Assembly: GCA_903843045.1 (NCBI GenBank)
Contig: CAIMOJ010000004.1
Location: 1-43,901, forward strand
Origin: Candidatus Uhrbacteria bacterium
Lineage (GTDB): Bacteria; Patescibacteriota; Patescibacteriia; UBA9934; GWF2-40-263
DNA length: 43,901 nucleotides
Reading direction: 5' to 3'
This document shows positions 5,342-43,901 of this stretch, piece by piece (position 1 is the stretch's first letter; every line of letters starts with the position of its first letter). The position numbers were made by a program, and so were the translations under genes. The notes under the pieces are model-generated. The model searched no databases. It had not been told where the DNA came from and saw only the letters and a list, made by a program, of their open reading frames with translations.

Positions 5342-6736
5342 TTACGTATGCTTTACGAGCCAGTCCTTCACTACCCGCGTGGCGCGGACGTCGTCCTCGT
5401 TGTAATCCAGGATCTTGTCGAGCGTCTTCTTGTCGCCGGTCCGCATCCACTCCTCGAACCACAGCACCGAGTTCGCGCCCGACGCGTCGTCGCTGCGCCA
5501 GTGGAACCCGACGTAGGCGGCGATGTCCTTGAGCGAGTAGAAGGTGAGCGGGAACACGACGGTGCGGCGGATGACCTCGATCACGTCGATCATGTTCTCG
5601 CGCAGCGCGTCGCGGACAAGGTCGGAACAGCCGTACTTCGCGGCGAACCGGTTGATCACGTCGGTCTCGAAGTGGCCGTAGTGGTAGACGGGAACGTCGA
5701 GGTGGCTTTCCACGAACCCCACGAACTCCTTCCACATGGACGCCTCGTCCTCCGGTCTCTTCGCCAGGAACGGGGTGTACTTCTCCTTCCCCTTCTGGAC
5801 GACGATCACGCCGAACAGATAGTCGAAGTCGCGCAGCGGGTTCGACTCGATGTCGAAGAAGATCTCGATCGACGACTCCGGAAAGTCGACGGACTTGCGC
5901 ACGATGTGATGGGTGTCGCGGATGGCGATGGCCTGGTCGCGCATCATCTCGAGGCGGCCGGCCTGCAGGTCTGGGCACAGGCGTCGCAGGTCGTGGATCG
6001 ATTTCGAGGCAAGCGCGTCGATCGTCTCGATCTTTGCGTCCTTCAGCCGCAGAACCTCCTCGTTCCACACGCGGTTGAGCGACGAAAGCTCGTTGCACGC
6101 GTTCGATTCCTTCACGCACTCCGAGAACCACGGCGACTGCTTGCACGCGCCCGTGACGAAGTGGACGGGCCGCTTCCCCGCAACGATCTCCTCGATGTCG
6201 TCGAGCGCCAGCTTGTACCGCGCCTCGAACTCCTCGATCTCGTACGGCAGCGTCGTCCCGTCGGGCGTGATGACGTATCCGCGCACCGGCTTCGTTCCCT
6301 GGACCTTCGCGAGCAGCTCGGCGTAAAAGCATCCCTGGAACTTGTACTCGTCGCGCACTTCCCTCCCGCGCTTGATGTCCGCCGCGACGTAATAATAGTC
6401 GCCAAGCGCCGACGAACCCTCCACGCGCTCCAAAACGTCGGGATGCCCGACCCAATGCCGGTCCACGAGAACCCCCTGATAGATCGTCGTCCGTCCCTCG
6501 CGCATAAACGCGAGCGTCTGCCGAAACGCGTCGTCCGGATCCTCGGCCGTCACCTCGGCCACGTCCACGCGGTCCGAAATCGCCGCGCGCTCGTGCGCGT
6601 CGACAAGCCCCTCCTCCATCAGCTTGTACAGCAGCGGGTCGTGCGGCTTCGGTTCCGCCGAATGCGCGTCAAAATACACCCAATTCGGGCATTTGATGAG
6701 CTGATAGAAGGAGGACTCGGTGATTTGGCGAGACAT
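5342..6736 (-). CDS. TM0106-family RecB-like nuclease with RNase H-like (YprB-type) domain
   Basis: 464 aa, ADIKRGRE...KFQGCFYAELLAKVQG ... CKQSPWFSEC... IFFDIESNPLRDFDYLFGV ... VYHYGHFETDVINRF ... YNEDDVRATRVVKDWL; start at MSRQITESSFYQLIKCP. Confidence 0.85.
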   Translation of the reverse strand: MSRQITESSFYQLIKCPNWVYFDAHSAEPKPHDPLLYKLMEEGLVDAHERAAISDRVDVAEVTAEDPDDAFRQTLAFMREGRTTIYQGVLVDRHWVGHPDVLERVEGSSALGDYYYVAADIKRGREVRDEYKFQGCFYAELLAKVQGTKPVRGYVITPDGTTLPYEIEEFEARYKLALDDIEEIVAGKRPVHFVTGACKQSPWFSECVKESNACNELSSLNRVWNEEVLRLKDAKIETIDALASKSIHDLRRLCPDLQAGRLEMMRDQAIAIRDTHHIVRKSVDFPESSIEIFFDIESNPLRDFDYLFGVIVVQKGKEKYTPFLAKRPEDEASMWKEFVGFVESHLDVPVYHYGHFETDVINRFAAKYGCSDLVRDALRENMIDVIEVIRRTVVFPLTFYSLKDIAAYVGFHWRSDDASGANSVLWFEEWMRTGDKKTLDKILDYNEDDVRATRVVKDWLVKHT

Positions 6737-6770
6737 GGGTGGATTATACAGGAAAACGGGAGATTTGCCA

Positions 6771-6799
6771 TTGACGGGATCCAGAAATTGCCGTATGGT
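6771..6799 (+). promoter_or_regulatory. Sigma70-like promoter of the E2/E1/Ubl cassette
   Basis: TTGACG-N17-TATGGT upstream of the 6869 start. Confidence 0.55.
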
Positions 6800-6868
6800 T
6801 CCGCATCCCGCCGCAGGCCCCGAGCCTGTCGAAGGGAGGGACTTTCTTTCACAACAGAGGAGAAAGAC

Positions 6869-8371
6869 ATGGCAAAGAGGCTTCGAAAGATGGAAGGGTT
6901 CATCGGAGACACTCTCCCGGATATCTACCTGGCGATCGTCGCGACGTTCGTCGAGAATCCGCGCGGAACGATGTTCCTCGTTCCGCCGGTCTACGGCGAA
7001 CGAGCGCGCGATGCCCTGATCGCCGCCGGATTTCCGGTGCGGCGGGTCGCATGCATGGCCGACAACGCCTACAAGATGTTCGCCTGGCGCGTCGGCCTCG
7101 GTTCGAAGGCGGCCGAGCGCAAGGAGCGATTCGAGATCGCCACCTGGATCCTGTACGGGACCGGTCCCGACGGATGCGAGGCGATTCCGGCGTTCTCGCC
7201 CGATACGTGGACCCCCATGGTGGTGCCGATGGTCGTTCCGAAGAACGTCACGGTCGAGATCCGCGTGGACACGTCGCAGGCCAGCGAGAACGACGCGACG
7301 ATCGACCGCGTCCGCCAAAAACGCGAGGCCCTCGCGGCGTACGCGCCGATGCTTCGCACGCTCGCCCAACTGACGGGCAAGGCCGTCTGGTTCCACTCGC
7401 CGGACCACGGGGAAAGCGCGACGCTCGCGCCCATCACGGAGCCGGGGGACGCGATCCACCTGGTCACGAACATGGCCCCGCCCGGAACGCAGAACGTCCG
7501 GCAGATCCGCAAGCTGTTCGGCGTCCACGTGGCCGACGGCGACATCGTCACGGCCCACGGGCCGACGATCGGCAGGGGCGCGGTGCTGTACGACGGATAC
7601 AAGGTGCCCGCAGTTCAGATCGTCGGCAGCACCTGGTATCTGCTCGTTCCAACTCTCACTGTCTACAAGCCGCTCGTGAGCGAGGCGATCTTCCGAAAGC
7701 TTCTGGCAGCCGGATGGAGCCATCACGCGGGATACGTCGAGTCGACCTACGACCCGGTTCCCCGCGACCAGCTCGCCAAGACGCTCTCCGCGTGGGGCGA
7801 CGACATGCCTCGCATGCTCCGGGGGTTGGTCGACCAGGGCGAGCGGGACATCGTCCTCTACCAGGAGCACATCGCAAGGAGACAGCGCGAGACGACGATC
7901 TACCGTGGCGTCCTCGCCCAGCTGGAACGCAAGGGAGGAAAGACGGAAATCGTCCGTCGCGCCCTTTCGGACATCGCGGCCATCCGGAAGGAACCGCTGG
8001 TGGAACGGCTTGACGCGTTCAAGGACGGCCTGCACGTCCACACGCGACGCATCGTCGCCGAGGAGGACGGCGTCCGGTACGACCTGGGGTCGTTCGTAAT
8101 CCGGATCGACTACGACCGCTCCGTCTCCGTATGGAACGAGGCGCCCACCCATCCGGAAGGGATCCAGCACCCGCACATCCCGAAGCACGGCGGCCCTTGC
8201 TTCGGCAACGCGAGCAACGCCATCGCGAAGGCGACGGGCACGTTCCAGTACCTGGACGCCATCCGCTACGTCATCCGCTGGCTCGCCGAAGGGTACCAGC
8301 ACGACCTCGCCTCCACGAAGATCAACGAGTGGCCGACCGTTCAACCCGCGGAGGAATCCCATGCCAAGTAG
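6869..8371 (+). CDS. E2-like (UBC-fold) domain protein with large uncharacterised N-terminal region
   Basis: MAKRLRKMEGFIGDTLPDIYLAIVATFV...; C-terminal VRYDLGSFVIRIDYDRSVSVWNEAPTHPEGIQHPHIPKHGGPCFGNASNAIAKATGTFQYLDAIRYVIRWLAEGY resembles the E2 HPN...G-x-x-C active-site context; RBS gaggagaaag. Confidence 0.65.
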   Translation: MAKRLRKMEGFIGDTLPDIYLAIVATFVENPRGTMFLVPPVYGERARDALIAAGFPVRRVACMADNAYKMFAWRVGLGSKAAERKERFEIATWILYGTGPDGCEAIPAFSPDTWTPMVVPMVVPKNVTVEIRVDTSQASENDATIDRVRQKREALAAYAPMLRTLAQLTGKAVWFHSPDHGESATLAPITEPGDAIHLVTNMAPPGTQNVRQIRKLFGVHVADGDIVTAHGPTIGRGAVLYDGYKVPAVQIVGSTWYLLVPTLTVYKPLVSEAIFRKLLAAGWSHHAGYVESTYDPVPRDQLAKTLSAWGDDMPRMLRGLVDQGERDIVLYQEHIARRQRETTIYRGVLAQLERKGGKTEIVRRALSDIAAIRKEPLVERLDAFKDGLHVHTRRIVAEEDGVRYDLGSFVIRIDYDRSVSVWNEAPTHPEGIQHPHIPKHGGPCFGNASNAIAKATGTFQYLDAIRYVIRWLAEGYQHDLASTKINEWPTVQPAEESHAK

Positions 8372-9017
8372 CGAACCGTCGGACCTGAACCGGTCCCAAC
8401 AGGACGCAATCTTCGATCCGGGAAACGCGCGCCCGGTGACGCTCATCGGCGCCGGGTCGGTGGGAAGCATGGCCGCGGGATGGCTCGCCGACATCGGCGT
8501 GTCCGACCTTGCCGTGTGGGACGCCGACGACGTGGCGTCCCACAACGTGCCCATGTCGCGGTACGAGCCGGAACAGATCGCGCGCAAAAAAGTGTCGGCG
8601 CTCGCCGAGCTCATTGCACGCAAGAGCGGGCTTACGATCGCGCAGGTTCCGCGCATGTACGCGGGCGAGCCGCTGCGTGGATCGATCGTGGCGTGCGTCG
8701 ACCGGATGAGCGCCCGGCAGCTCATTTGGAAGCAGGTCCGAAAGAATCCGAACGTCGACATCCTCGTCGACACGCGGATCGCGGCGAAGTACGTCGAGGT
8801 CTGGGCCATCCGCCCGTGCGACCCGGACGACATCGCGGAGTATGAGAAGAACCTCCCGAACGACAGGGATGCGCTCACTCCTCAGTGCGGCATCCACGGG
8901 ATCATCTATTCCACGGCCGTCGCGGCATCCGCCGTGTGCGATGACTTGACGGAATGGTGGACGACCGGTACCGTGCGCAGGCGTTTCGCCATGCTCGGCC
9001 TCAAGCAGATTCACTGA
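8361..9017 (+). CDS. ThiF/E1-like adenylating enzyme
   Basis: VTLIGAGSVGSMAAGWLADIGVSDLAVWDADDVASHNVPMSRYEPEQIARKKVSALAELI...VACVDRMSARQLIWKQV...TPQCGIHGIIYSTAVAASAV; overlaps the upstream CDS by 11 nt. Confidence 0.9.
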   Translation: MPSSEPSDLNRSQQDAIFDPGNARPVTLIGAGSVGSMAAGWLADIGVSDLAVWDADDVASHNVPMSRYEPEQIARKKVSALAELIARKSGLTIAQVPRMYAGEPLRGSIVACVDRMSARQLIWKQVRKNPNVDILVDTRIAAKYVEVWAIRPCDPDDIAEYEKNLPNDRDALTPQCGIHGIIYSTAVAASAVCDDLTEWWTTGTVRRRFAMLGLKQIH

Positions 9018-9035
9018 AAAACCCAGGAGAAGAAA

Positions 9036-9278
9036 ATGGCTCAGAAGAGACAGATCCACGTCGTCATCGTTCCCACCACGGGCGCGCCCGTCACCAAGAC
9101 GGTCGACATCGCCCGAACGGGAAAGGTCTCCGTCGAGGAGGTGCTCGCGTCCGCGGGCGTCTCGTCCGAGAAGAAGTCCCTGTCGGTGCTGCGCCCGACG
9201 TCCGTGACCGTGGGTCCGGACGACACGGTCAACCCCGGCGAGACCATCACGGTCACCGAACGCCCCCAGGGATCGTAG
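9036..9278 (+). CDS. Small beta-grasp ubiquitin-like protein
   Basis: 80 aa MAQKRQIHVVIVPTTGAPVTKTVDIARTGKVSVEEVLASAGVSSEKKSLSVLRPTSVTVGPDDTVNPGETITVTERPQGS; beta-alpha-beta pattern, DDTVNPGETITVT near the C terminus, directly after E1-like gene; RBS aggagaag. Confidence 0.7.
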   Translation: MAQKRQIHVVIVPTTGAPVTKTVDIARTGKVSVEEVLASAGVSSEKKSLSVLRPTSVTVGPDDTVNPGETITVTERPQGS

Positions 9279-9294
9279 CCGATCCCCGCTTCCC

Positions 9295-9326
9295 GCGGCG
9301 AGATTCTCTCGCCGCTTTTTCTTTTT
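9295..9326 (+). terminator. Intrinsic terminator after Ubl gene
   Basis: GCGGCGAGattctCTCGCCGCtttttcttttt. Confidence 0.85.
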
Positions 9327-9391
9327 CCAAACCCGGCCGTATTGACAAACAGGCGATTTTCCGCCAAGATCCTTTCGCAAGGAGCTGCACG

Positions 9392-9895
9392 ATGCCAACC
9401 CGAATCGATCCGGCGCACTGGAATGCCTTTCTCCTCTTTCTGAAGACGGTCGAACGCGGCGCAGTCATTCCCATCGCGTTCGACTCGATTCGCGACGTCA
9501 TCTGGACGCAGCGCGCCGGCAAGTACGACAACCAGCAGTCGTCCGTTGTCTGTACCGCGATGGCGGACCCCGACATGCTCGACCTCGCGACGGAAAGCGG
9601 GTTCATCCTCGTGGCCTGTTCCGCCGATTTCCCGCAGCCGTCCCGGCAAAGCTTCGGCGCCCCGACGCTTTCGCTCAAGATCCTGGAGATGCCGAAGGAC
9701 CCGGGCGCAAGCCGCACCTTCCCATTCGCCTACGACCTCTTCGCCGACGGACGCCACGACCTCGTGGCGATGTCGACCGCCGTCCCCGAGTACCTCCGCC
9801 TCGTCACCTGGCTCGTCGAGTCGTTTCCAGACCGCCACGACCATCGCACGATGGGACCCAAGAAGTGGGCGTTCGAAGACCTGCTCTCCGCCTGA
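9392..9895 (+). CDS. Hypothetical protein
   Basis: 167 aa, RBS aaggag, own TTGACA-N17-CAAGAT promoter and terminator. Confidence 0.7.
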   Translation: MPTRIDPAHWNAFLLFLKTVERGAVIPIAFDSIRDVIWTQRAGKYDNQQSSVVCTAMADPDMLDLATESGFILVACSADFPQPSRQSFGAPTLSLKILEMPKDPGASRTFPFAYDLFADGRHDLVAMSTAVPEYLRLVTWLVESFPDRHDHRTMGPKKWAFEDLLSA

Positions 9896-9896
9896 T

Positions 9897-9917
9897 CCGA
9901 CCTATGGTCGGTTTTTC
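9897..9917 (+). terminator. Intrinsic terminator
   Basis: CCGACCtatGGTCGGtttttc. Confidence 0.8.
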
Positions 9918-9964
9918 TTTTTTCCTGCCGGAAGGATTTTTTATGTGGCTTGCCGCCACACCGC

Positions 9965-10559
9965 GTCACTTTCTTTTTGCGGAAAAAGAAAGTGACCAAA
10001 GAAAGCCGCCGCCCGGTCTCCATGGCGGGATGGGACGTAAAACTTGGCCTCGGCTGCGGAACTCGCTAGCTGCGCCAGACGCGAACCCCTGACGCGCCGC
10101 TTCGCTCAGACAATCCTCGCCCGTGCTGATGCACCCGGCCAAGTTTTACGTCCCATCTCTCTCCGCCATTCCGACAGGGCGGGTTTTCCGGGCGGAGTTG
10201 CGAGGATTGCTTTTGGCTGAGGCCGTTTTTCCTCTCTCAACGTTTCCCCTCCTCCCTATGAGGAGGGGTCAGCCGTTCGAGGCTCTGAGGAGCCCTCAGG
10301 CTCTCGAAGAGGGGTGGTCGCCGAGCCGTAAATAAAACAAACTTCCATCCGGTCAACCGCCCTGCCGGAGCGACCCAGCCAGGGCGTGAAAAATTGGCGG
10401 GTGCATCAGCACGGGCGAGGATTGTCTGAGCGTACGAGCCCGCAGGCGAGAAGCGAGTTCCGCAGCCGAGCCAATTTTTTACGTCCTGGCGTAGGAGCGG
10501 ATGGCCGGGCGGAGAGCCTTTCTTTGGTTACTTTCTTTGTGCTCCGACAAAGAAAGTGA
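9965..10559. repeat. About 600-bp non-coding palindromic repeat region with nested inverted repeats
   Basis: Ends are GTCACTTTCTTTTT/AAAAAGAAAGTGAC-type hairpins; gggacgtaaaacttggc (10032-10048) inverted at 10138-10154; the block with ctcggctgcggaactcgc...agacaatcctcgcccgtgctgatgca recurs inverted at 10384-10490. Confidence 0.8.
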
Positions 10560-10643
10560 CGCGGGTGCAGGGCGCAGCGCCTGCGGAAAAACCTTCAATT
10601 CAAAACGCGGACACCCGCAAAGGCATCCGCGTTCACGATCCGA

Positions 10644-11306
10644 TTATTTCTTCAACTCCTCAACCGTCACAACGTCCATCTTGTCGCCCTGGCGCAGCTG
10701 ATCCACCACGTCCATCCCCTCGGTCACCCGACCGAAGATGGTGTACAGCTTCTGCATGCCGTGATCGGAGATCGGCGTGTCCCTCAGCATGATGAAGAAC
10801 TGGGAGCCGTTGGTGTTCTTGCCGCTGTTGGCCATGGCCACGACGCCGCGGTCGTACTTGTACGAGTCCGTCAGCTCGTCCTCGAACTTGTAGCCCGGGC
10901 CGCCCGAGCCGGTGCCCGTCGGGTCGCCGCCCTGGATGACGAACCCCGGGACGTAGCGGTGGAACGTGAGGCCGTCGTAGTAGCCGCCCTTCGTCAGGTT
11001 GACGAAGTTGGAAACGGTCTTCGGCGCCGTGTCCGGATACAGAGAGAACACGATGTCTCCCTTTTCCGTGTGAACGCGGATCTGCTTGTTCTGAATCTCC
11101 GCGGCCGGGAGAACTCCCGGGAACGAGAACTTCTGTTTTTCAACCATAGTGGAACCGTCGATTACCTTTGCCGGGGGAGCCGTCGTCGCGGGAGTCGTCA
11201 AGACAGGCGCGGCCGTCGAGACGTTCGTCTCCGACGAGGACGTGCATCCGCCGCCGACGAGGACGAGCGAGATCAGGCCTGCGGCAAGGGGAATGGAGAG
11301 ACGCAT
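10644..11306 (-). CDS. Lipoprotein peptidyl-prolyl cis-trans isomerase, cyclophilin type
   Basis: Lipobox VLVGGGCTSS; YYDGLTFHRYVPGFVIQGGDPTGTGSGGPGYKFEDE...NTNGSQFFIM. Confidence 0.95.
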   Translation of the reverse strand: MRLSIPLAAGLISLVLVGGGCTSSSETNVSTAAPVLTTPATTAPPAKVIDGSTMVEKQKFSFPGVLPAAEIQNKQIRVHTEKGDIVFSLYPDTAPKTVSNFVNLTKGGYYDGLTFHRYVPGFVIQGGDPTGTGSGGPGYKFEDELTDSYKYDRGVVAMANSGKNTNGSQFFIMLRDTPISDHGMQKLYTIFGRVTEGMDVVDQLRQGDKMDVVTVEELKK

Positions 11307-31718: not shown

Positions 31719-32339
31719 TTAGGCGGGCTTCGTCCACTCGACGATCTCCCCCGCGCGCCGCTCGAGCGCATCCGCCGGGCGGAGCGTCGCGATCTGGCCT
31801 CGCGACAGGATTGCCGTATGCGCAACGTTGCAGAGATGCTCGGGAACGAACCAGACCGGGTCCTCGCTGGTCATCCAGCCGCGCGCGTCGAACCGCGACA
31901 AGTCGACGGGACGCGAGAACGATCGCAGGGTCTTCTTGCCGTTCGACTGGAGGAAATACTCGTGGAAGTACGACATCGCGAGCTCACGGATCGTGCGATA
32001 GACCGGCTCGCGGTAGCGGAGGACGGCGTGGTTGGTCTTCGAGATCGCGCCCCAGTGGCCGTGTCGACGAAAGAGGGCAACGACGTGGTCCTGGTCGTCG
32101 TCGGTCGAGGTGAGGTCGAGGATCAGCGGCTTTTCGCCGGCGAGGCGCAACGCGACGGCGGCGAGCATCGCGCCCTCGATGCAGTGCGCGCGGCCATGGC
32201 GAAGGACGAGGCGCGGCGAGAAGCATGAGTCTCCGTCGGGCTCGTGGTTCTGCGGAAGCGCGTCAAGAAAATCCTGGATTTTTGCCGGGGTGTTGAGTCG
32301 TTTGAGGACGCGGAGTTCCGTTGGATCGAGCCCGTACAT
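31719..32339 (-). CDS. Transglutaminase-like domain hypothetical protein
   Basis: HGRAHCIEGAMLAAVALRLAGEKPLILDLTSTDDDQDHVVALFRRHGHWGAISKTNH; start at MYGLDPTELRVL with ggaaggag RBS. Confidence 0.7.
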   Translation of the reverse strand: MYGLDPTELRVLKRLNTPAKIQDFLDALPQNHEPDGDSCFSPRLVLRHGRAHCIEGAMLAAVALRLAGEKPLILDLTSTDDDQDHVVALFRRHGHWGAISKTNHAVLRYREPVYRTIRELAMSYFHEYFLQSNGKKTLRSFSRPVDLSRFDARGWMTSEDPVWFVPEHLCNVAHTAILSRGQIATLRPADALERRAGEIVEWTKPA

Positions 32340-32344
32340 AAAAA

Positions 32345-32360
32345 TTAACTCCTTCCCTTT
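32345..32360. other. Probable chimeric junction between two genomes
   Basis: GC-rich core-gene side ends with the RBS of the 31719 CDS; the dispersed Bacteroidetes-side repeat starts at about 32360; composition and gene content change abruptly. Confidence 0.8.
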
Positions 32361-32488
32361 GACCTTTGACTTTTGACCTTTGACAATAAGAAAAGAGCCT
32401 TTCCTGTGCAAGTGGGGAAGGTTTTTTTAATGAAAAGCTATGCACAGAGCGGAGCCGAAGTGTGAATAGCGAATAGTGAAAAATCCTC
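32360..32488. repeat. Dispersed repeat copy A
   Basis: tgacctttgacttttgacctttgacaataagaaaagagcctttcctgtgcaagtggggaaggttttttt...aaaagctatgcacagagcggagccgaagtgtgaata. Confidence 0.85.
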
Positions 32489-32617
32489 ACCCATTTAATA
32501 AAACTCCACGATGGAGGCCCCCCTCTCTTTCCTTCAAAGAGAGGGGATGGGGGTGAGTTTTTAAAGCGAAATATAAATAGATATAAGGATATTATGTAAC
32601 TTTACAGAAAAAATACC

Positions 32618-32860
32618 ATGGACTTAGAAGCCAGAAAGATCATATTTGTCCAGGAATTCCTGAGATTGCAAAACGAGGAAATCATCAGCGGGCTTGAAAA
32701 GTTGTTGCGAAAACAAAAAAACGATTTGTTTGAAAAGAAGTTGACACCTATGAGCCTTGAACAATTTAACAGAGAAATTGATCAGGCATTGTCTGATTCA
32801 GAGATGGGGAGAATTACTCCGGCTGAAGAATTGAAAAATAAGGTTCAAACATGGAGCTAG
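32618..32860 (+). CDS. Putative antitoxin of a ParDE-like module
   Basis: 80 aa, helical; start-stop overlap with ParE-like ORF. Confidence 0.6.
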   Translation: MDLEARKIIFVQEFLRLQNEEIISGLEKLLRKQKNDLFEKKLTPMSLEQFNREIDQALSDSEMGRITPAEELKNKVQTWS

Positions 32861-33177
32861 CCGTTTACTGGACTCAATTCGCCGAGGACAAACTGGAGGA
32901 TGTGTTCCTATATTATACTCAGAAAGTAAGTCTGAAACTTGCTCAGTCTCTGGCAAATGAATTAATTGACCGATCAATGGAATTAGCAAAAAATCCTTTT
33001 ATGGGTCAAAAAGAACTACTTCTTGCAGATAGAACTTAGGATTTCAGGTATTTGGTCTTCAAAAACTTCAAGATTATATATTGGGTCAATTTAAAGAGGC
33101 AAAGAATTGAAATTGTAAATCTGTTCGATTGCAGGCAGAACCCGCAGAAAATGAGCGAAATGATTGACAATGGATAA
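32851..33177 (+). pseudogene. RelE/ParE-like toxin interrupted by an in-frame TAG
   Basis: MELAVYWTQFAEDKLEDVFLYYTQKVSLKLAQSLANELIDRSMELAKNPFMGQKELLLADRT*DFRYLVFKNFKIIYWVNLKRQRIEIVNLFDCRQNPQKMSEMIDNG*. Confidence 0.75.
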
Positions 33178-33198
33178 TGGACAATGGATAATTGACAA

Positions 33199-33324
33199 TG
33201 ACCTTTGACTTTTGACCTTCGACAATAAAAAAAGAGCCTTTCCTGTGCAAGTGGGGGAGGTTTTTTTTAGTGAAAAGCTATGCACAGAGCGGAGCCGAAG
33301 TGTGAATAACGAAAAGTGAAAAGT
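33199..33324. repeat. Dispersed repeat copy B
   Basis: tgacctttgacttttgaccttcgacaataaaaaaagagcctttcctgtgcaagtgggggagg...ctatgcacagagcggagccgaagtgtgaata. Confidence 0.85.
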
Positions 33325-33350
33325 AAAGCCCGGTTGCAGATTTCGCCCTT

Positions 33351-33493
33351 TCGCCCCGTCGCCCCGTCGCCCTGTCGCCCTGTCACCCCATCGCCCCGTC
33401 GCCCCGTCGCCCCGTCGCCCCGTCGCCCCGTCGCCCCGTCGCCCCGTCGCCCCGTCGCCCCGTCGCCCCGTCACCCCATCGCCCCGTCGCCCC
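33351..33493. repeat. 8-bp tandem repeat (cgccccgt)n
   Basis: Tandem cgccccgt units with sparse c-to-t and g-to-a variants. Confidence 0.95.
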
Positions 33494-33529
33494 TCGCCTC
33501 TATGTGACCTATGTGCCTATGTGGAGTAA

Positions 33530-33632
33530 AATATAAAAAGGCTTTCCTGTGGAAACGGGGAATGTTTTTTTAGTGAAAAGCTATGCACAGAGCGGAGCCG
33601 AAGTGTGAATAACGAATAGTGAAAAGTGAAGT
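33530..33632. repeat. Dispersed repeat copy C
   Basis: aaaaggctttcctgtggaaacggggaatgtttttttagtgaaaagctatgcacagagcggagccgaagtgtgaataacgaatagtgaaaagtgaag. Confidence 0.85.
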
Positions 33633-33903
33633 TGTATTGCCTTGTCGCCTTGTCACAGCCGCGCCTGTTGCCTATGCGCCTTCAACATGCATTTATCCAC
33701 TATTTATTAACAAAATATTATTTCCGTAACAGGCTCTTTTCTATTGCATTTTTTTTTATACTTTAGCAGCCTTAAATCTTTTGGAATCTGTTGGAATCAA
33801 AAATTAAAGCTTTGGATTTCTTTTCTGACTATAACTTACCCGGAATGTTTGAAAACCATTGATGCCATTGAGTTTACAAAGACTGCCTCAGAAAGCGTAA
33901 AAC

Positions 33904-33983
33904 TACACGGTATCTTTTACACAAGTACACAGTATCTTTTGCCTGATTACACAGTATCTTTTTACTAATACACAGTATCTTAT
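33904..33983 (+). promoter_or_regulatory. Four phased direct repeats TACACAGTATCTTTT upstream of T9SS gene
   Basis: Copies start at 33904, 33926, 33948 and 33969 (22, 22, 21 bp spacing). Confidence 0.6.
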
Positions 33984-34059
33984 TTTACTAATGCTTTTTT
34001 GCCTTTTTAAGAATGATATAATAAACCCATAACACAATAACCAATAAAATCTGATTTAT

Positions 34060-37000
34060 ATGAAAAACAAATTACTCTTTACACGCAACCTGGCTTTGGT
34101 TGCTATTGTTCTTTTAATGATGATGCCTGGATTGGGATGGGGGCAAACCCAGATAGCGGCTTGGACTTTTGATGCTACGGCTGCTGCTCCCAGCACTCCA
34201 AGCAGTGTTGCTGCTAATTTAGGAGCACAATTAGGTACTGCAACTCTTTATGCTGATGGGACTAATGGATCATCCACATGGATTACTGCGACGCTTGGTA
34301 ACGAACTCACAGCATTTGCAGGTTCAACAATAAATGATCCTCGTGGGACACCATCGGCTGGACAGTCATACTGCCCAGTTGGAGGAACTGGATTTTCTGC
34401 AAATGGGAAGAGCATGGTGATTAAACTTACAATGACAGGGTTTCAGGATCCGATACTAACCTATGCCACCAGAAATACTTCTACAGGTTTTCAAACACAA
34501 ACATGGGCATGGAGCACAGATAATAGTACCTATACCACTTTTGGAACGATCACAACTATAACTACTTCTTTCGTAACTAAGACGCTTGATATGAGTAGCA
34601 TCAATTCCCTTGATCAAGCTGCTGCTGTTTATTTACGTGTCACTTTCACAGGAGCAACAAGCACATCGGGAAACAATAGATTAGATAATATTGTAATAAA
34701 TGCTACTGCTGCCAGTGCCGGCGGTCCGACTAAACTTGTAATAACCTCTATTAACGGAGGAATTTCGCCTTCAACTGGAACCCCTTTTAATGTTATGGTT
34801 CAGTCGCAGGATGCTGGTAATGCACCTGCAAATGTAGTTGCCACTACTAATTTTAGTTTGAGTTTGGTTTCCGGAACTGGTGCTTTAGGCGGAACGCTAA
34901 CCGGAAGTATTGCTGCCGGTTCAAATAGTGCAACAGTAACCGGAATCACTTATAATACAGCCGAAGCAGGGGTAAGCCTGACAGCAACCCGCACTTCAGG
35001 CGATATATTAACAGCAGGTACAAGCAGTACTTTTGCTGTTTTGGGGGCAGCTGATCATCTGGCTTTTGCAAATTTCCCTGCTGTAGGGTTTCCTGGCCAG
35101 ATAATTGCTTCCTTCACTGTTGAAGCACAACGCGCTGATAACACAGTGGATCTTAACTTTCCGGCAACTTCTGTAACCATTTCCAAGGCCAGCGGCCCTG
35201 GTACGGTTACCGGCACTCTAAGCAAATCAACAATTGCAGGTGGTGCCGCATTCAATGATATTGTAATGAGCATCAATGGAAGCTATACGGTATCGGCAAG
35301 TTGTTCTGGTCTTACAGGTGCAACTTCTGGCACAATTAACATAGTTGATCCAATGTACCAGTCGAAAGCCAGTGGCAACTGGAGTGCAAGTTCATCATGG
35401 GAAGTATATAATGGAACTGGTTGGGTAGCTGCATCTGATTATCCCAATGCTTCAAGCAAATCTGCAACCATTCTTAACTCACATGTCATTAGTGTGACTG
35501 ATAATAACGGTAAATGTTCTAACTTAACAATAAATGCTGGCGGAAAGTTGTGGAAGAATAGTCCAACTGCCGCCAGCTACCTTTACGTTTATGGCAATAT
35601 CCTGAATAACGGAACCATTGGAAGCAGCGATGGAGGTGTGACACCTTCGGCTCTCGGTTTCGATATCGAAGGAACAAACTGCCTTATTTCAGGAAGTGGA
35701 ACATTTGATGCATGGCGGATGGCAAAATTCACAACGACCAATGCAATCACTAACCTGACGATCGGACAGGATGTAACGCTTCGTAATACAGTTCCTTCTA
35801 CAGTTTACAATTCTGCTGCCTCAACAACTTTAAACATTCTAATTAATTCAGGAAAAAAACTTGCTGTTACAGGTGCAGGTATCGATTTACTAAATGTCAA
35901 CCTCACTATATCATCGGGGGCCTCACTACTGGATAATGGTACTATTACTAACCAAACTGGTGCTAATGTTACGGTAGAACGTGCTATTGCCGGTGGCGAA
36001 TGGCATTTAATTTCCGCACCGGTTTCTGATGCAGTTTCCGGATTGTTCACAGGTAAATTCCTGCAGAAAAATACTGAATCTACTAATGCATTTACTGATA
36101 TTGAGTCAGTTACCGAGGCTCTTACACCGGCAAAAGGTTTCGCGTTGTATAATGCAACAGATTTTACAGCTCAATATACAGGGACTCTGAATACGGGTGC
36201 TATTGGATCAGCTGATAATGTTACACGATCGGCAACCGGTGAGTTCTCAGGATGGAACCTTGTTGGCAACCCTTACCCATCCTCAATCGACTGGAATGCT
36301 TCATCCGGCTGGACCAAAACCAATTTAAATAATGCTACTTATATTCATTTAAATGCTTCTAATTGGGCATCCTACGTGGGTGGTGTTGGCTCTAACGGAG
36401 GCTCTCAGTTTATTGCTTCAGGCCAGGGTTTCTTTGTAAATGTAGCGAGTGTTGGAAACGGTACACTCGCAATGAATAACAATATCAGGGTACATAATGC
36501 AACTCCTTTCTATAAAAGCGCTGTAAGCAACCTTGTAAGGTTACAGGTGTCCGGCCAGGGCTTTACTGACGAAGCAATTGTGAGGTTCGCTGCCAATGCT
36601 ACAGCGGGATTTGACGGTGACTATGATGCATATAAACTTTTTGGCGATGTAGCAAAAGCAGCCCAACTCTATACGTTAGGCAGCACTCCGTTGGCTATCA
36701 ATACAATGCCCGAAACAAGCACCGTTCCTGTTGGAATTCACGTCGGCTCAAGCGGTACTTATACCATTGCTGCTACCGAAATCAACGACTTTACCAAAGT
36801 AACCCTCGAGGATACCAAAACCGCTGTGTTTACTGATTTGCTTACAACATCCTATACTTTTAGCTTTATACCGGGCGAAAACGAACAGAGATTTGTTCTG
36901 CATTTCGGACCTTTGGCAGTTAACGAAACTGAAAGTTCATCTGCCAATATTTACAGCTACCGTCAAACCGTTTATGTAAATATGAAAGATAAACAAGCAG

Positions 37001-37155
37001 GCGATATCTATATTTATAACATTGCCGGTCAGGTGATTGCTACTAAAATGTCAGCAAAGGGAATGAATGAGATAGGCCTTAATCAAACGGGTAACTATAT
37101 CGTGAAAGTGATTAGCAGGGATAATACAGTGGTTAGGAAAGTGTTTATTAACTAA
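34060..37155 (+). CDS. Large secreted surface protein with T9SS type A sorting domain
   Basis: Signal peptide MKNKLLFTRNLALVAIVLLMMMPGLGWGQ; Ig-like/adhesin-like repeats; C-terminal ADHL...VNMKDKQAGDIYIYNIAGQVIATKMSAKGMNEIGLNQTGNYIVKVISRDNTVVRKVFIN. Confidence 0.93.
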   Translation: MKNKLLFTRNLALVAIVLLMMMPGLGWGQTQIAAWTFDATAAAPSTPSSVAANLGAQLGTATLYADGTNGSSTWITATLGNELTAFAGSTINDPRGTPSAGQSYCPVGGTGFSANGKSMVIKLTMTGFQDPILTYATRNTSTGFQTQTWAWSTDNSTYTTFGTITTITTSFVTKTLDMSSINSLDQAAAVYLRVTFTGATSTSGNNRLDNIVINATAASAGGPTKLVITSINGGISPSTGTPFNVMVQSQDAGNAPANVVATTNFSLSLVSGTGALGGTLTGSIAAGSNSATVTGITYNTAEAGVSLTATRTSGDILTAGTSSTFAVLGAADHLAFANFPAVGFPGQIIASFTVEAQRADNTVDLNFPATSVTISKASGPGTVTGTLSKSTIAGGAAFNDIVMSINGSYTVSASCSGLTGATSGTINIVDPMYQSKASGNWSASSSWEVYNGTGWVAASDYPNASSKSATILNSHVISVTDNNGKCSNLTINAGGKLWKNSPTAASYLYVYGNILNNGTIGSSDGGVTPSALGFDIEGTNCLISGSGTFDAWRMAKFTTTNAITNLTIGQDVTLRNTVPSTVYNSAASTTLNILINSGKKLAVTGAGIDLLNVNLTISSGASLLDNGTITNQTGANVTVERAIAGGEWHLISAPVSDAVSGLFTGKFLQKNTESTNAFTDIESVTEALTPAKGFALYNATDFTAQYTGTLNTGAIGSADNVTRSATGEFSGWNLVGNPYPSSIDWNASSGWTKTNLNNATYIHLNASNWASYVGGVGSNGGSQFIASGQGFFVNVASVGNGTLAMNNNIRVHNATPFYKSAVSNLVRLQVSGQGFTDEAIVRFAANATAGFDGDYDAYKLFGDVAKAAQLYTLGSTPLAINTMPETSTVPVGIHVGSSGTYTIAATEINDFTKVTLEDTKTAVFTDLLTTSYTFSFIPGENEQRFVLHFGPLAVNETESSSANIYSYRQTVYVNMKDKQAGDIYIYNIAGQVIATKMSAKGMNEIGLNQTGNYIVKVISRDNTVVRKVFIN

Positions 37156-37256
37156 GAGACCAGGCGTAGGGGCGAGGGGCGATTAAACGACCCCTAATCC
37201 CTAAATCCTAATCCCCAAAACCTTTATACTTAAAACAAGATTAAACTCAAAGACAT

Positions 37257-37493
37257 ATGAAAAGAAACATAAAAATATTAGTTATTGCAGTCTTACTGTT
37301 AACAGTTCCTCTGCTGATGTTCGCTCAGCCTCATCCTAATAATGGAAATGGTGCCCCGGGCGCAGGCAACACTCCTGTTGGCGGCTCCAGCAGCGCACCC
37401 ATTGGCAATGGCACTTTTCTGTTACTCACTTTGGCGATGGCTTATGCCGGACGAAAAGTGTACGTAGTGCGCGCTAATCCTGCAGGCGAATAA
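37257..37493 (+). CDS. Small exported protein with PID-CTERM-like C-terminal sorting tail
   Basis: 78 aa: signal peptide, Gly/Pro/Asn linker, APIGNGTFLLLTLAMAYAGRKVYVVR. Confidence 0.6.
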   Translation: MKRNIKILVIAVLLLTVPLLMFAQPHPNNGNGAPGAGNTPVGGSSSAPIGNGTFLLLTLAMAYAGRKVYVVRANPAGE

Positions 37494-37524
37494 ATCGCGA
37501 ACGCCTTCACGGCTCATACAGTCT

Positions 37525-37562
37525 ACACAGTTATCCGATTAAACGGGTAACTGTGTTTTTTA
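37525..37562 (+). terminator. Intrinsic terminator
   Basis: ACACAGTTAtCCgattaaacGGgTAACTGTGTtttttat. Confidence 0.85.
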
Positions 37563-37970
37563 TTTTCGGTCATCACCAGGGCCAACTTTTTACAAATCAA
37601 ACTTATTGTGTCTGAAAAATGAACAGGAAATTTTTGCAATTCAATATAATAGCGTCAGTAGTGCTTCTGTCTCATCATAAAAACTGTTGCTGAGTTCGCT
37701 CAAAATATTTTTGCCGACAGTATAAAGACATTCAAAAAACTATATATTTGTGGCTAACATTATTTATAAGCCATTGTCACCTAATAAAGGGTTTTGGAAG
37801 CGAAAAGTGTTTATCGCAAAGCTCGCTGAGAAGGCGCAGAGAGCCGCAGAGTTCTTGTCAGGTAGCCTTCTCTGCAGAACTCTGCGTAATACTTTGCGGT
37901 TCTCTGTGGTTATTTTTTAACATTTTCTGTCAAGTAAACGACATTGATTTATCAGCTATAAATCCCACCT

Positions 37971-40900
37971 ATGCAAACCGATATCTATAAGCCTAAAAAT
38001 CATATACGCATTGTAACTGCCGCCGCATTATTCGACGGTCACGATGCAGCCATTAACATCATGCGCCGCATATTGCAGAGCACAGGAGTGGAGGTGATAC
38101 ATCTCGGGCACGACAGGCAGGTACAGGAAATTGTGGATTGCGCCATACAGGAAGATGTTCAGGCTGTGGCTATTACATCCTACCAGGGTGGGCACATGGA
38201 GTTTTTCAAATACATGCATGATTTGTTGAAGGAAAAGGGCTGTGGTCATATTAAAATTTTTGGCGGTGGGGGAGGAGTGATCCTTCCGGAGGAAATCAAT
38301 GAACTGCAACAGTATGGAATCTCGAGGATATATTCACCTGACGATGGCCGTCACCTGGGCTTGCAGGGAATGATCAACGAAGTGGTCGAATTATCCGATT
38401 TCCCGACAGGCAAAGATCTGACAATTACCAAATCCGATATACAGAAAGGCGATTATCACGCCATAGCCCAACTTATCTCTGCTGCCGAAAACCATCATTC
38501 GGAGGTTAAAAACCTACTGGCTGAACTTAAAGCAGGATGTTCGTCGGGTACAACTCCGGTTTTGGGAATAACCGGTACCGGTGGTGCAGGAAAATCCTCG
38601 CTTGTGGATGAATTGGTCAGGCGTTTCCTTTCCGATTTTCCGGATAAAACCTTAGCCATTATTTCGGTGGATCCATCGAAGCGTAAAACCGGTGGCGCGC
38701 TCCTGGGGGACCGGATCAGGATGAATGCCATCAATACCCCAAGGGTTTATATGCGTTCACTGGCTACCCGGCAGGCTAACCTGGCCCTGTCGAAACACAT
38801 ATCCGAAGCACTCTGCATTGTGAAAAATGCCGGATTCGACCTGGTGATCCTCGAAACTTCGGGGATCGGGCAATCGGATACCGAGATTGTTGATTTCTGT
38901 GATGTAAGCATGTATGTGATGACACCGGAATACGGTGCCGCCACTCAGCTTGAAAAGATCGACATGCTTGACTATGCTGATATAGTTGCCCTTAATAAGT
39001 CGGATAAACGCGGTGCGCAGGATGCATTACGCGATGTTCGCAAACAGTTTGCACGCAATCGTATGCTGTTTGCTACCGATCCTGAGAAACTGCCCGTGTT
39101 CGCTACTATGGCATCTCAGTTTAACGACCATGGTGTTAACCAGTTATACCGCGAACTCATCCATATTTTGAATGCCAAAACCAGGGCAGATTACGATTCG
39201 CAGTTTCAAATAGCAGAAGATATTGTCAGCATTGCCGGCATCATTCCGCCAAGGCGCGTCCGCTACCTGGGCGAAATTACAGAGAGCGTCCGTAACTATA
39301 ACAAATGGTCGAAGCAGCAGGCATCAGTTGCCCGCCGGCTTTACGGGCTTCACATCGCAATCGAAGAACTCAATTACCCGGAGAATACGCTGCTCACCAG
39401 CTCAACTCCTGCTCTATCAGCTGAATTAAAGAAACTTTATAAAGAAACGCAGAAACAGCTGGAACCGGCCAACCAGAAACTTATCGACACCTGGCAACAT
39501 CGTATCAAGGAACTTAAGAAAGACACTTGCACCTATATTGTCCGCAACAAAGAGGTGAAAGTGCAAACGTTTACAGAATCGATGTCGCACTTGCGCATTC
39601 CCAAAATAGCAATGCCGCGTTACAACGACTGGGGCGATATACTCGAATGGTGCCTGCGCGAAAATGTGCCGGGTGAATTTCCTTACGCTGCCGGGCTTTA
39701 TCCTTTTAAACGCGAAAACGAAGACCCCACACGTATGTTTGCCGGCGAAGGCGGACCCGAGCGCACCAATAAGCGCTTTCATTATGTTTCCTTCGGCATG
39801 CCTGCCAAACGGCTTTCCACCGCTTTCGACTCAGTTACACTTTACGGTGCCGATCCCGGCTTACGGCCTGATATTTACGGCAAAATTGGCAATGCCGGTG
39901 TTTCTGTAGCCTGCCTCGATGATGCCAAAAAACTCTATTCAGGTTTTAATCTGTGCGACCCGGCAACTTCCGTTTCAATGACCATCAACGGACCGGCTCC
40001 CGCCATGCTTGGTTTTTTTATGAATACCGCCATCGACCAGCAGTGTGAATTGTATATACATAAAAACGGGCTCGAAGAGGAAACCGAAAAGAAGATAAAA
40101 GCTATTTTCCGGAAACATGGCTCAAAACGGCCTGATTACCAGGGGGATTTACCGGAAGGGAATAACGGATTGGGTTTGATGTTGCTCGGCATTACCGGCG
40201 ACCAGGTGCTTCCGGCAGAGGTTTACACTAAGATTAAAACCGAAACCATTGCCAATGTCCGAGGTACGGTACAGGCTGATATACTGAAAGAAGACCAGGC
40301 CCAGAATACCTGTATTTTCAGCACCGATTTTGCACTCAGGCTGATGGGCGATGTGCAGCAGTATTTTATCGAGAATAACGTGAGGAACTTTTACTCGGTT
40401 TCTATTTCGGGTTACCATATTGCCGAAGCCGGTGCCAACCCGATTACCCAGCTTGCTTTTACCCTGGCAAACGGTTTCACTTACGTTGAATATTACGCCT
40501 CGCGCGGAATGGACATCGATAAATTTGCGCCTAACCTCTCCTTTTTCTTTTCCAACGGCATTGATCCCGAATATTCGGTATTGGGCAGGGTGGCACGACT
40601 GATTTGGGCCAAGGCTATGAAAGGTCTATACAAAGCGGGGCCTCGCTCGCAGATGCTCAAATACCACATACAAACCTCAGGGCGTTCGCTTCATGCGCAG
40701 GAAATTGATTTCAACGATATACGCACTACGCTCCAGGCACTTTATGCAGTTTACGACAACTGCAATTCGCTGCATACCAATGCTTACGATGAGGCCATCA
40801 CAACTCCGACCGAGGAGTCCGTTCGCCGGGCTATTGCCATACAAATGATTATCAACAACGAACTGGGGCTTACCAAAAACCAGAATCCACTTCAGGGCTC

Positions 40901-41360
40901 ATTTATTATAGAAGAACTGACCGACCTGGTTGAAGAAGCCGTATTAGCCGAATTTGATCGGATAAATGAGCGCGGAGGTGTATTGGGAGCCATGGAAACC
41001 ATGTACCAGCGTGGAAAGATCCAGGAAGAGTCGCTCTATTACGAACATCTTAAGCATACCGGCGAACTGCCGATCATGGGCGTAAATACTTTCCTTTCGA
41101 GCAAGGGATCGCCGACTGTAATTCCGAAACAGGTAATACGTGCCACCAAAGCCGAGCAGGAATACCAGATTGCCATGTTGCAGCAGTTGCACAACACCTG
41201 GCAGGACGAATCACGCGAGTGTCTGTTGCATTTACGCGAACAGGCACTGCATGGCGGTAACCTTTTCGAAAGCCTGATCGAAGCAACCAAATATTGCTCG
41301 TTAGGACAGATAACTCAGTCGTTGTTTGAAGTTGGAGGACAGTACAGGAGGAATATGTAG
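37971..41360 (+). CDS. icmF: Fused isobutyryl-CoA mutase / methylmalonyl-CoA mutase family protein with internal MeaI-like G3E GTPase
   Basis: N-terminal B12-binding ([34 protein letters not shown]), GTPase [22 protein letters not shown]-terminal mutase barrel. Confidence 0.93.
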
Positions 41361-41384
41361 CCTTTTCGCGGATATTACGATTAT

Positions 41385-41415
41385 AAAAAAAGCAGGCCTT
41401 GTAGCCTGCTTTTTT
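41385..41415. terminator. Bidirectional terminator
   Basis: aaaaaaAGCAGGCcttgtaGCCTGCTtttttc. Confidence 0.85.
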
Positions 41416-41452
41416 CAATTGATATTGGTTGGTTGAACTGGGTAATCAGGTT

Positions 41453-43141
41453 TTAGTTTACAAATTGCTCTGCATAATATTTAGCGGTAAGCTTTTCGCC
41501 TGTGGCTTTCTCAATCATTTCGTTCCAGCTGTAACGGGCACCGGGTTTAAATACATTTTCCTTCAGGTAGTCGCCAACCTCTTTTTTACCAAAGTAGCTC
41601 TGTCCGAAATCGGACGATTTCAGAACAGTAGATGCTATGTAATGATTAAATTGTGATGCCAGCAACTCACCGAGCAGGTAGTTATGGTAGTAACAGGGCG
41701 AAGTGGCAATATGAATTTTGCTTGCCCAATCAGGCAGGTTGCGGTTTGCAGGTCTTTTTATCATCTGGTATTTTTCTACGAGATCCCACCATAATTTATT
41801 CAGGTCCTGGTCAGGGTTGGCGTACAAAGCTTGCTCGAAACGGTACATTACCTGTGCCCAGCGACTAAATGTAAGTTGTTCCAGGCAAAGAACTTTAAAG
41901 CTTTCGGTAGCAACTTTGCGGGCATCGGTAGTGTCGGTGAGTTTCATATCAACCAGAAACCCTGCATTAGCAGCCATACGTCCGAAAAACATGGCAATCG
42001 CTTCGGTTGTAAAAGTATGCGCAGGGTTGCGAAGAGCAAACGGGAGCTGACCATCAATGTATTTATCGTAATTCGCGTGGCCAAATTCGTGCAACATGGT
42101 ACCCATCCAGCTGTAATTGGGTTTGATATTGCACAGAACCCTTACATCTCCATGGTTATCAATATCGATACAATAGGCATGCTGATTTTTGCCTGGTTTT
42201 TCGTAAAGGTCACTCTTTGCAATCATATCGCTGATATCCAGGTCGATACTGGAATAATAATCAGTGGTAAGTGTTTCAATATTCTTGCCTTTATAGTATT
42301 TGTCGAGGTCAACGCTGTAAATGGCAGGTGCTTCCTGAAAAAAGCGGTTTTGATAATGCCAGGGCATCAGGTTTTCGGCTTTAACATTATCACGTTTCGA
42401 GAGATAGGTGTCAATTTCGCCTTTCAGACCTGTAAATGCATCGCGGGTCAGGTTATCGAGTTCGTCGAATAGCTTGCTGATTTCTTCCGGATCCTGCTCG
42501 CTCAGTTTCAGGCTCATGGAATGATAATTGTCGAAGCCCAGTTGTTTGGCTATCTCATTGCGTTTTTTTACCAGGTTGATAATATCCTGTGCCACAACGG
42601 GTCCAATGGCTTTGTGCCCTTCCCATGCCTGTTGCAGTTCTGCAGAATTTGTGGAGGTTTTCAATACGTCCTCTACATCGTTATCACTGAGTTTTTTACC
42701 ATTTACATCAGCACGGAAATTCGAATATTTCTTCTCCACTTCCGTTTGCATTTTGATGGCACTGTTCAGCAGGGAGGTATCGACCTGGTTTCCCAGGTAA
42801 CTATTGTACATCACTTCAAGTTGGCGTTTCAATAGCTCATCGGTGATGGCATCCGATTCTTTAATTTTTTTGAGAATAGCAAAATCCTCTTTATTCGAAA
42901 ACACTTTCGTGAGTTCAATGTTAAGATCTTCCGATTTTTTCCAATCCTCGTCCTTCCCGCTCAGGGAAGCATTCCAGTAAGCCAGCGAAGCTTCTTTGGT
43001 TAGCGGCTGAACAATTGAATCGAATCGTTCAATAAATGAAAGCAGTTGTTTTTTCATGTGCGGTTTGTTATTTTTACATCCATCAAAAGCAATTACCGAA
43101 AGCAATGCCATTAACAGGATAATACGTTTAAATGTTTTCAT
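41453..43141 (-). CDS. M2-like (ACE-type) dipeptidyl carboxypeptidase lipoprotein
   Basis: Lipobox IAFDGCKNN; MGTMLHEFGHANYDKYIDGQLPFALRNPAHTFTTEAIAMFFGR. Confidence 0.85.
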   Translation of the reverse strand: MKTFKRIILLMALLSVIAFDGCKNNKPHMKKQLLSFIERFDSIVQPLTKEASLAYWNASLSGKDEDWKKSEDLNIELTKVFSNKEDFAILKKIKESDAITDELLKRQLEVMYNSYLGNQVDTSLLNSAIKMQTEVEKKYSNFRADVNGKKLSDNDVEDVLKTSTNSAELQQAWEGHKAIGPVVAQDIINLVKKRNEIAKQLGFDNYHSMSLKLSEQDPEEISKLFDELDNLTRDAFTGLKGEIDTYLSKRDNVKAENLMPWHYQNRFFQEAPAIYSVDLDKYYKGKNIETLTTDYYSSIDLDISDMIAKSDLYEKPGKNQHAYCIDIDNHGDVRVLCNIKPNYSWMGTMLHEFGHANYDKYIDGQLPFALRNPAHTFTTEAIAMFFGRMAANAGFLVDMKLTDTTDARKVATESFKVLCLEQLTFSRWAQVMYRFEQALYANPDQDLNKLWWDLVEKYQMIKRPANRNLPDWASKIHIATSPCYYHNYLLGELLASQFNHYIASTVLKSSDFGQSYFGKKEVGDYLKENVFKPGARYSWNEMIEKATGEKLTAKYYAEQFVN

Positions 43142-43275
43142 AATTCAAAGTTTAAGGTTCAAAGATCAAGGTTCAAAATTCAAAATTTAAAGTTCAAGGT
43201 TCAAGGTTCAAAGTTCAAAAACCGGACACTGAGTAAAGCCAAAATTCAAGGTTCAAAGTTCAAAAACCGGATACT
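43142..43275. repeat. Degenerate tandem aaggttcaa/aagttcaa repeats with ccggA(c/t)actg...aagcc motifs
   Basis: attcaaagtttaaggttcaaagatcaaggttcaaaattc... Confidence 0.8.
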
Positions 43276-43367
43276 GTGCGAAGCCGAAGTGCACGGTTGT
43301 ACACCAAACTGGCACATTTCCTAATTAACGCATTAGCACATTAGCACATTAACACATTATCGCATTA

Positions 43368-43901
43368 TCACATTTCCAGTTCCCATGAAGCGCCTTCCTT
43401 AGTATCCTTAATGGTGACTCCGGCCTGTGCCAGGGTGTCCCTCAGGCGATCGCTGGTAGCCCAGTCTTTATTGGTGCGGGCTTCACGGCGCAGATCCAGG
43501 ATAATATTCATCAGGTTGCTTATTACCTGGTTACCGGCTTGCGGGTCATTTTCAGGAAGCAGTCCCAGGATGTCGAAAGTAAATGTATGCATCGTTGTAC
43601 GAAGCAATCCTATATCGACAGCGGTCAGGCTTTCCTTTTTATCATGAGCCGAGTTAATGATTCGTGCGGCATCAAAAAGATGAGCAATCAGTATAGGGCT
43701 GTTGAGGTCATCGTTCATGGCCTCGTAGCATTTTGACTGCAAAACTGCGATATCCACAGTTGAGAGGTTTGCCGGAACCAGTTTTTCGATGGTAGCAATG
43801 CTTTTCATCAATCGCTGGAATCCTTTTTCGGAAGCCTGCAAGGCTTCGTTGCTGAAATCGAGCGGGCTGCGGTAGTGAGCCTGGAGGATGAAAAAACGCA
43901 C
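43368..43901 (-). CDS. cysS: Cysteinyl-tRNA synthetase, C-terminal part (truncated at window edge)
   Basis: FFILQAHYRSPLDFSNEALQASEKGFQRL...MNDDLNSPILIAHLFDAARIIN...DWATSDRLRDTLAQAGVTIKDTKEGASWE. Confidence 0.92.
   Translation of the reverse strand: MRFFILQAHYRSPLDFSNEALQASEKGFQRLMKSIATIEKLVPANLSTVDIAVLQSKCYEAMNDDLNSPILIAHLFDAARIINSAHDKKESLTAVDIGLLRTTMHTFTFDILGLLPENDPQAGNQVISNLMNIILDLRREARTNKDWATSDRLRDTLAQAGVTIKDTKEGASWELEM

Follow-up and report, generated by a model that had tools for sequence, protein, structure and literature searches.

Introduction

In the bacterial operons described by Iyer as types 6a to 6e, a JAB peptidase is always encoded, either fused to another component or by an adjacent gene, and is replaced only in a subset of type 6e (PMC1779556). 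Bil systems consist of BilA with two domains of the ubiquitin-like protein (Ubl) type, BilB, which carries a CEHH motif, the JAB protein BilC and the two-domain E1 BilD (PMC11354881). In CBASS, exchange of the C-terminal Gly for Ser abolishes conjugation (PMC10097602). Here, we analyzed a three-gene E2-E1-Ubl cassette from a Candidatus Uhrbacteria bacterium. The window, i.e. the whole stretch of DNA under analysis (43,901 nucleotides), corresponds to contig C4; the assembly comprises 1.28 Mb and is 96% complete. We consider it likely that the cassette is a minimal ubiquitin-like protein-conjugation system with working E1, E2 and Ubl components. A survey of paper titles on Patescibacteria or Uhrbacteria and ubiquitin found no such system among those listed; most subscription papers were outside its coverage and an earlier description is possible.

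If the inferred function is true, the cassette would be among the smallest self-contained ubiquitin-like systems, residing in a genome of ~1.3 Mb. The host bacteria belong to the candidate phyla radiation, whose members are thought to live on other microbes. As a very small natural system for probing ubiquitin-like tagging, the cassette makes it testable whether such tagging needs a JAB protein, whether E1 and E2 enzymes are able to use a C-terminal serine and what purpose tagging serves in the candidate phyla radiation.

Organization of the cassette

The three genes lie on the plus strand and encode an E2-like protein (P0001, 500 aa, 6869..8371), an E1-like adenylyltransferase of the ThiF family (P0002, 218 aa, 8361..9017) and a Ubl (P0003, 80 aa, 9036..9278) with the C-terminus TERPQGS. 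The E2 and E1 genes overlap by 11 nt and a gap of 18 nt separates the E1 gene from the Ubl gene. A first-pass annotation, made from the DNA letters alone, had given these open reading frames, the overlap, the gap, the HPHI..GGPCFGN segment of the first protein and its Cys444, and all of them were correct when the coordinates were rechecked. It had also described a single promoter and a single terminator. Both flank the genes on the plus strand: a sigma-70-like promoter site (TTGACG-17-TATGGT, 6771..6799), recognized by its match to the consensus only, lies 5' of the cassette, and an intrinsic-terminator-like stem-loop (9295-9315) with a T-run (9295..9325 in all) marks the end of the operon.

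The frame of the E2 gene extends further upstream, opposite a real RNase_H_2 gene on the minus strand (5345-6736). Third-position GC amounts to 0.85-0.90 in the three cassette genes versus 0.63 in this extension. Recurrence of the same gene order in seven further genomes (see below) takes the cassette beyond chance and marks its plus-strand frame as conserved. The sampled contigs of the window's assembly have a GC content of ~60-64%; the cassette segment thus has the composition of its host.

Conservation of the three-gene order

The same E2-E1-Ubl cassette, termed class A in the following, occurs in at least eight genomes, namely that of the window, G062, G029, G143, G587, G640, G649 and G533, the last seven being other Patescibacteria. 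Conservation of the three genes together was one of the checks that the first-pass annotation had set, and this result, combined with the support for the beta-grasp and UBC assignments given below, bears out its conjugation reading. When 60 related genomes were searched first, the C-terminus of the E2 turned up in four besides that of the window, and the set was widened by a family-level search with the E1 and by order- and phylum-level searches with an E2 profile. A class-level search with an E1 profile matched 21 genomes out of 381 at E <= 1e-10. An alignment-based scan of contigs recovered G062 and G029 only; it underestimates the spread of the cassette, because the later profile searches recovered more distant members. 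In the seven class A loci where spacing was measured, the E2 and E1 genes overlap by 10-26 nt and gaps of 8-38 nt precede the Ubl gene. The contig of G029 ends inside the E2 gene and only the last 58 residues of this E2 are visible.

In a tree of E1 sequences, those of the eight class A cassettes fall into a single group (support 98/99) beside members from Patescibacterial clusters of the order E2-JAB-E1-Ubl (JAB-type clusters), with an unsure root; the "JAB" label on this tree includes G547, which has no JAB. Scans of viral contigs with P0001, A12 and A13 revealed no relative, nor did a tblastn search of plasmids and phages with P0001. Hence, nothing points to an origin from phages or plasmids.

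Homology of the three proteins

P0002 matches the ThiF family above the curated Pfam cut-off (PF00899, 1.3e-10), and the E1 profile matches ThiF, UBA5, MoeB and MccB. The GxGxxG and DxD motifs as well as N62, K77 and R119 are conserved in the E1 alignment. Cys176 (codon 8886..8888, plus strand), the predicted catalytic cysteine, is invariant in all 25 E1 sequences and aligns with the cysteine of the RNC motif of E. coli ThiF, which we take to be the catalytic Cys184. This agrees with the first-pass assignment of the second protein as ThiF/E1-like. Near the E1 N-terminus, class A proteins have Gln or His versus Arg in most JAB-type relatives, as read off the alignment, and this exchange may alter adenylation.

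P0003 gave only a sub-threshold match in Pfam. The Ubl profile resembles ThiS/SAMP2 and matches SAMP2 at 2.5e-10 and PF1061 at 7.9e-11. The model of P0003 (pLDDT 74) has the order beta-beta-alpha-beta-beta, and its best fold match in the PDB is Caldiarchaeum ubiquitin at E 1.5e-3, no match falling below 1e-3. The profile match to SAMP2 and this best fold match agree with the earlier description of the 80-aa protein as beta-grasp-like.

The likeness of the E1 to ThiF and of the Ubl to ThiS and SAMP2, families that have sulfur-carrier members, suggests another reading, in which the E1 would generate a Ubl thiocarboxylate for the thiolation of cofactors or tRNA, with the E2-like protein as an unrelated partner. 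Proteins of the SAMP2 and Urm1 type can serve in both sulfur carriage and conjugation. A UBC-like partner with an invariant cysteine is, however, encoded in every operon, and the related clusters encode a JAB peptidase. Moreover, searches run with positive controls detected ThiG in none of the eight class A genomes apart from one marginal match in G649, and MoaE in none at all; a ThiS/ThiF or MoaD/MoeB sulfur-carrier assignment was rejected on this basis. Above the cut-off, seven of these genomes have no ThiF-family protein besides the cassette E1, and G640 has two, one in each of its clusters. We regard a sulfur-carrier module as unlikely: where the first-pass annotation had left a choice between Ubl conjugation and a related sulfur/ligation system, conjugation is the supported reading, and sulfur carriage is disfavored in view of the ThiG and MoaE searches and the single ThiF-family protein per genome in seven of eight cases.

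MccB and PaaA are likewise matched by the E1 profile (1e-12 to 1e-13), which would fit a RiPP- or lipid-directed pathway in which the E1 and E2 couple either the Ubl or a peptide to lipids or small molecules in the manner of MccB or Atg8/Atg3. Atg8 has a single terminal Gly (PMC10097602), and no E3 or degradation partner was seen beside the cassette. Against such a pathway, no biosynthetic or transport genes were recognized beside the cassette in the window, G062 and G143, and the prediction for the Ubl is a folded beta-grasp protein, not a leader peptide. All in all, we judge this pathway distinctly improbable.

P0001 consists of a conserved N-terminal domain, a predicted long helix and a C-terminal UBC-like domain. 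On its own it has no match in Pfam, and no single member of the E2-domain family matches a Pfam E2 model; the E2 likeness is visible with profiles only. Alignment A7 comprises the C-terminal 123 residues of P0001 (residues 377-499, 7997..8365, plus strand) and 24 relatives. In all 25 sequences a cysteine corresponding to Cys444 of P0001 (codon 8198..8200, plus strand), the predicted E2 active-site residue, is invariant. An HPH or xPH motif sits ten residues before it (His434 in P0001), the same spacing as in HPN..C of the canonical eukaryotic E2s. Comparison of A7 with a set of five eukaryotic E2 sequences, entered by hand, by hhalign resulted in a score of 41.1 (P 3e-6) over 119 columns with HPN and Cys aligned. 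One hundred column shuffles of A7 reached a maximum score of 19.1, and other alignments scored 8.9 to 22.2, the top one being A18, the N-terminal part of JAB-type E2s. When the A7 profile was run against the PDB, ten of ten matches were E2 enzymes, but weak ones (E >= 0.097). AlphaFold prediction of full-length P0001 from a three-sequence alignment (pLDDT 42) was too poor to show a fold and gave no UBC match; matches of this model to KH and PII folds were treated as meaningless. The C-terminal domain as a UBC-type E2 with an active-site cysteine is thus supported by profile comparison, as the first-pass annotation had suggested for the first protein.

In principle, the E2-like domain could be an inactive binder of the RWD type and the cassette a Ubl-binding or scaffold module. 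E2-like proteins devoid of the cysteine do occur in related clusters, for example as product of the first gene of the G008 cluster, as well as in Iyer type 6e (PMC1779556), and the AlphaFold model is uninformative in this respect. Nevertheless, the cysteine is present without exception among class A E2s and among the main E2s of the JAB-type clusters aligned, and the HPx..C spacing is canonical, which renders an inactive binder very improbable.

The N-terminal domain of P0001 (residues ~150-290, 7316..7738, plus strand) belongs to no known family: it has no Pfam match and no significant PDB match. It is common to the JAB-type E2s, as evident from hhalign comparison of A17 and A18 (P 1.9e-10).

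Absence of JAB from class A

The JAB-type clusters (e.g. G008, G628 and G211) encode E1, UBC and E2 N-terminal domains homologous to those of class A, and their gene content is that of conjugation operons already known. They differ from class A in that a JAB is encoded. JAB genes were detected with a tailored HMM and PF14464. The tailored profile identified JAB at none of the eight class A loci. Of 19 loci examined outside class A, 16 gave a match; the exceptions are G547 as well as G011 and G526, whose loci are close to contig ends. Genome-wide, no JAB was found in the seven genomes whose only cluster is of class A, and in G640 JAB is present only in a second, JAB-type cluster. The absence of JAB close to the cassette, previously noted by eye, thus extends to the whole assembly. 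The class-A-only assemblies are 89-100% complete and a single gene might have been missed; an absence in seven of seven genomes is hard to explain by missed genes. The simplest reading is that JAB was lost in the ancestor of class A. Together, the JAB-containing Patescibacterial clusters and class A would form a series along which the evolutionary loss of deconjugation can be followed.

The wider E2-JAB-E1-Ubl family includes G008 (L008), G034 (L028), G060 (L027), G628 (L073), G601 (L074), G504 (L076), G584 (L078), G554 (L079), G503 (L081), G518 (L082), G211 (L043), G144 (L045) and G437 (L046). Ubls of JAB-type clusters end in GG, GN, NG or GS and some have extra C-terminal domains. Tandem-domain Ubls and second E2-like genes lacking the Cys are present in some of the clusters. 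G547 (L077) has an E2-E1-Ubl cluster without JAB that lies outside the class A clade and encodes a Ubl ending in SGG.

Comparison with described systems

Like Iyer types 6a to 6e, the cassette has E1-like and E2-like genes in one operon, joined by the Ubl gene as in types 6d and 6e, an E2 with a His/Cys active-site motif and a conserved Gly at the Ubl C-terminus. It differs by the lack of JAB and by the additional conserved N-terminal domain of the E2. Membership in types 6a to 6e was rejected because JAB is missing from the eight class A loci and was found in the JAB-type controls. Ubl, E2 and E1 are encoded by separate genes in Bil as well, and E1-like and small Ubl genes are shared with PRTRC. 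Both had been named as comparators in the first-pass annotation and neither fits. The cassette has an 80-aa Ubl and a 218-aa E1 in place of the two-domain Bil proteins, no JAB and no CEHH E2. P0002 reached 27.2 bits versus a cut-off of 144.75 bits for TIGR03736, no PRTRC partner genes were seen, and the only matches of the cassette E1 in a tblastn search of plasmids were PRTRC ThiF proteins with 23% identity. With CBASS Cap2/Cap3, the cassette has in common a ThiF-type E1, its cysteine predicted by homology to ThiF, and an E2 domain. In contrast, CBASS has a fused E1-E2 and a CD-NTase modifier, and Gly-Ser is invariant in class A. CBASS type II was rejected on the grounds that the genes are separate here and that Cap2 was not matched at full length, the E1 domain alone being matched. 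The best explanation is that the cassette represents a JAB-less variant of the known bacterial kind of conjugation system that falls outside Bil, CBASS Cap2, PRTRC, Iyer types 6a to 6e and ThiS/MoaD. No model named for the Bub system (Ye et al., 2026) was among the model-library matches of the cassette proteins.

Proposed mechanism and the Gly-Ser terminus

For a conjugating cassette, we infer that P0002 would adenylate the C-terminus of P0003 and then form a thioester via Cys176. The Ubl would be passed on to Cys444 in the UBC domain of P0001, which may move it onto an amine or other nucleophile of a target. The N-terminal domain of P0001 probably picks the target or docks the E1, an E3-like job. 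As there is no JAB deconjugase, tagging would be irreversible or be undone by an unrelated protease.

The Ubl probably works via its Gly-Ser end. All eight class A Ubls have a penultimate Gly and a terminal Ser, seven of the eight end in R-P-Q/R-G-S, and the last eight alignment columns are 73% identical versus a mean of 34% over the remainder. We favor a direct use of Ser80, since a Ser that is merely trimmed off would not be expected to be invariant. Given that the Gly to Ser exchange blocks CBASS conjugation, the enzymes of class A would need to behave differently in this respect. The far-reaching version of this proposal, namely that a clade of the candidate phyla radiation runs a full E1-E2-Ubl system without deconjugase, with the C-terminal Ser of the Ubl serving in both activation and attachment as a new type of acyl-donor residue and with tagging being one-way, is put forward tentatively and appears to us somewhat doubtful as a whole. 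A terminal GS does not strictly mark systems without JAB, as G007 combines this Ubl ending with a JAB.

Genomic site

In the sister species G003, ~108 bp connect the positions corresponding to window 6727 and 10688, and the ~4-kb block that contains the cassette (6728..10687) is missing. The cassette of G062 adjoins the same nuclease gene as in the window and is near the same cyclophilin gene, and that of G029 adjoins this cyclophilin gene. Other genes occupy the site between RNase_H_2 (5345-6736) and cyclophilin (10644-11306) in G004, G063 and G019. Given these genes and the gap in G003, the cassette is accessory and sits at a site with variable genes across the family. Its accessory status would fit a conditional role, and we can only guess at, for example, a stress response or defence; no effector or defence family was seen around the cassette. 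Contig C147 of G001, a member of the same genus, ends exactly at the cassette start (L110:1 corresponds to window 6872), and G001 may carry the cassette too.

Apart from the cassette, the window contains a segment of ~44% GC (32000-43901) in a contig of ~62% GC, which is either a horizontal island or the result of a chimeric contig. Within it, a 1031-aa open reading frame (34060-37155) has no Pfam or PADLOC match. The segment further encodes a fused B12-binding/MeaB/methylmalonyl-CoA mutase (37971-41360) and an M2-type peptidase (41453-43141), which are unexpected in a small genome.
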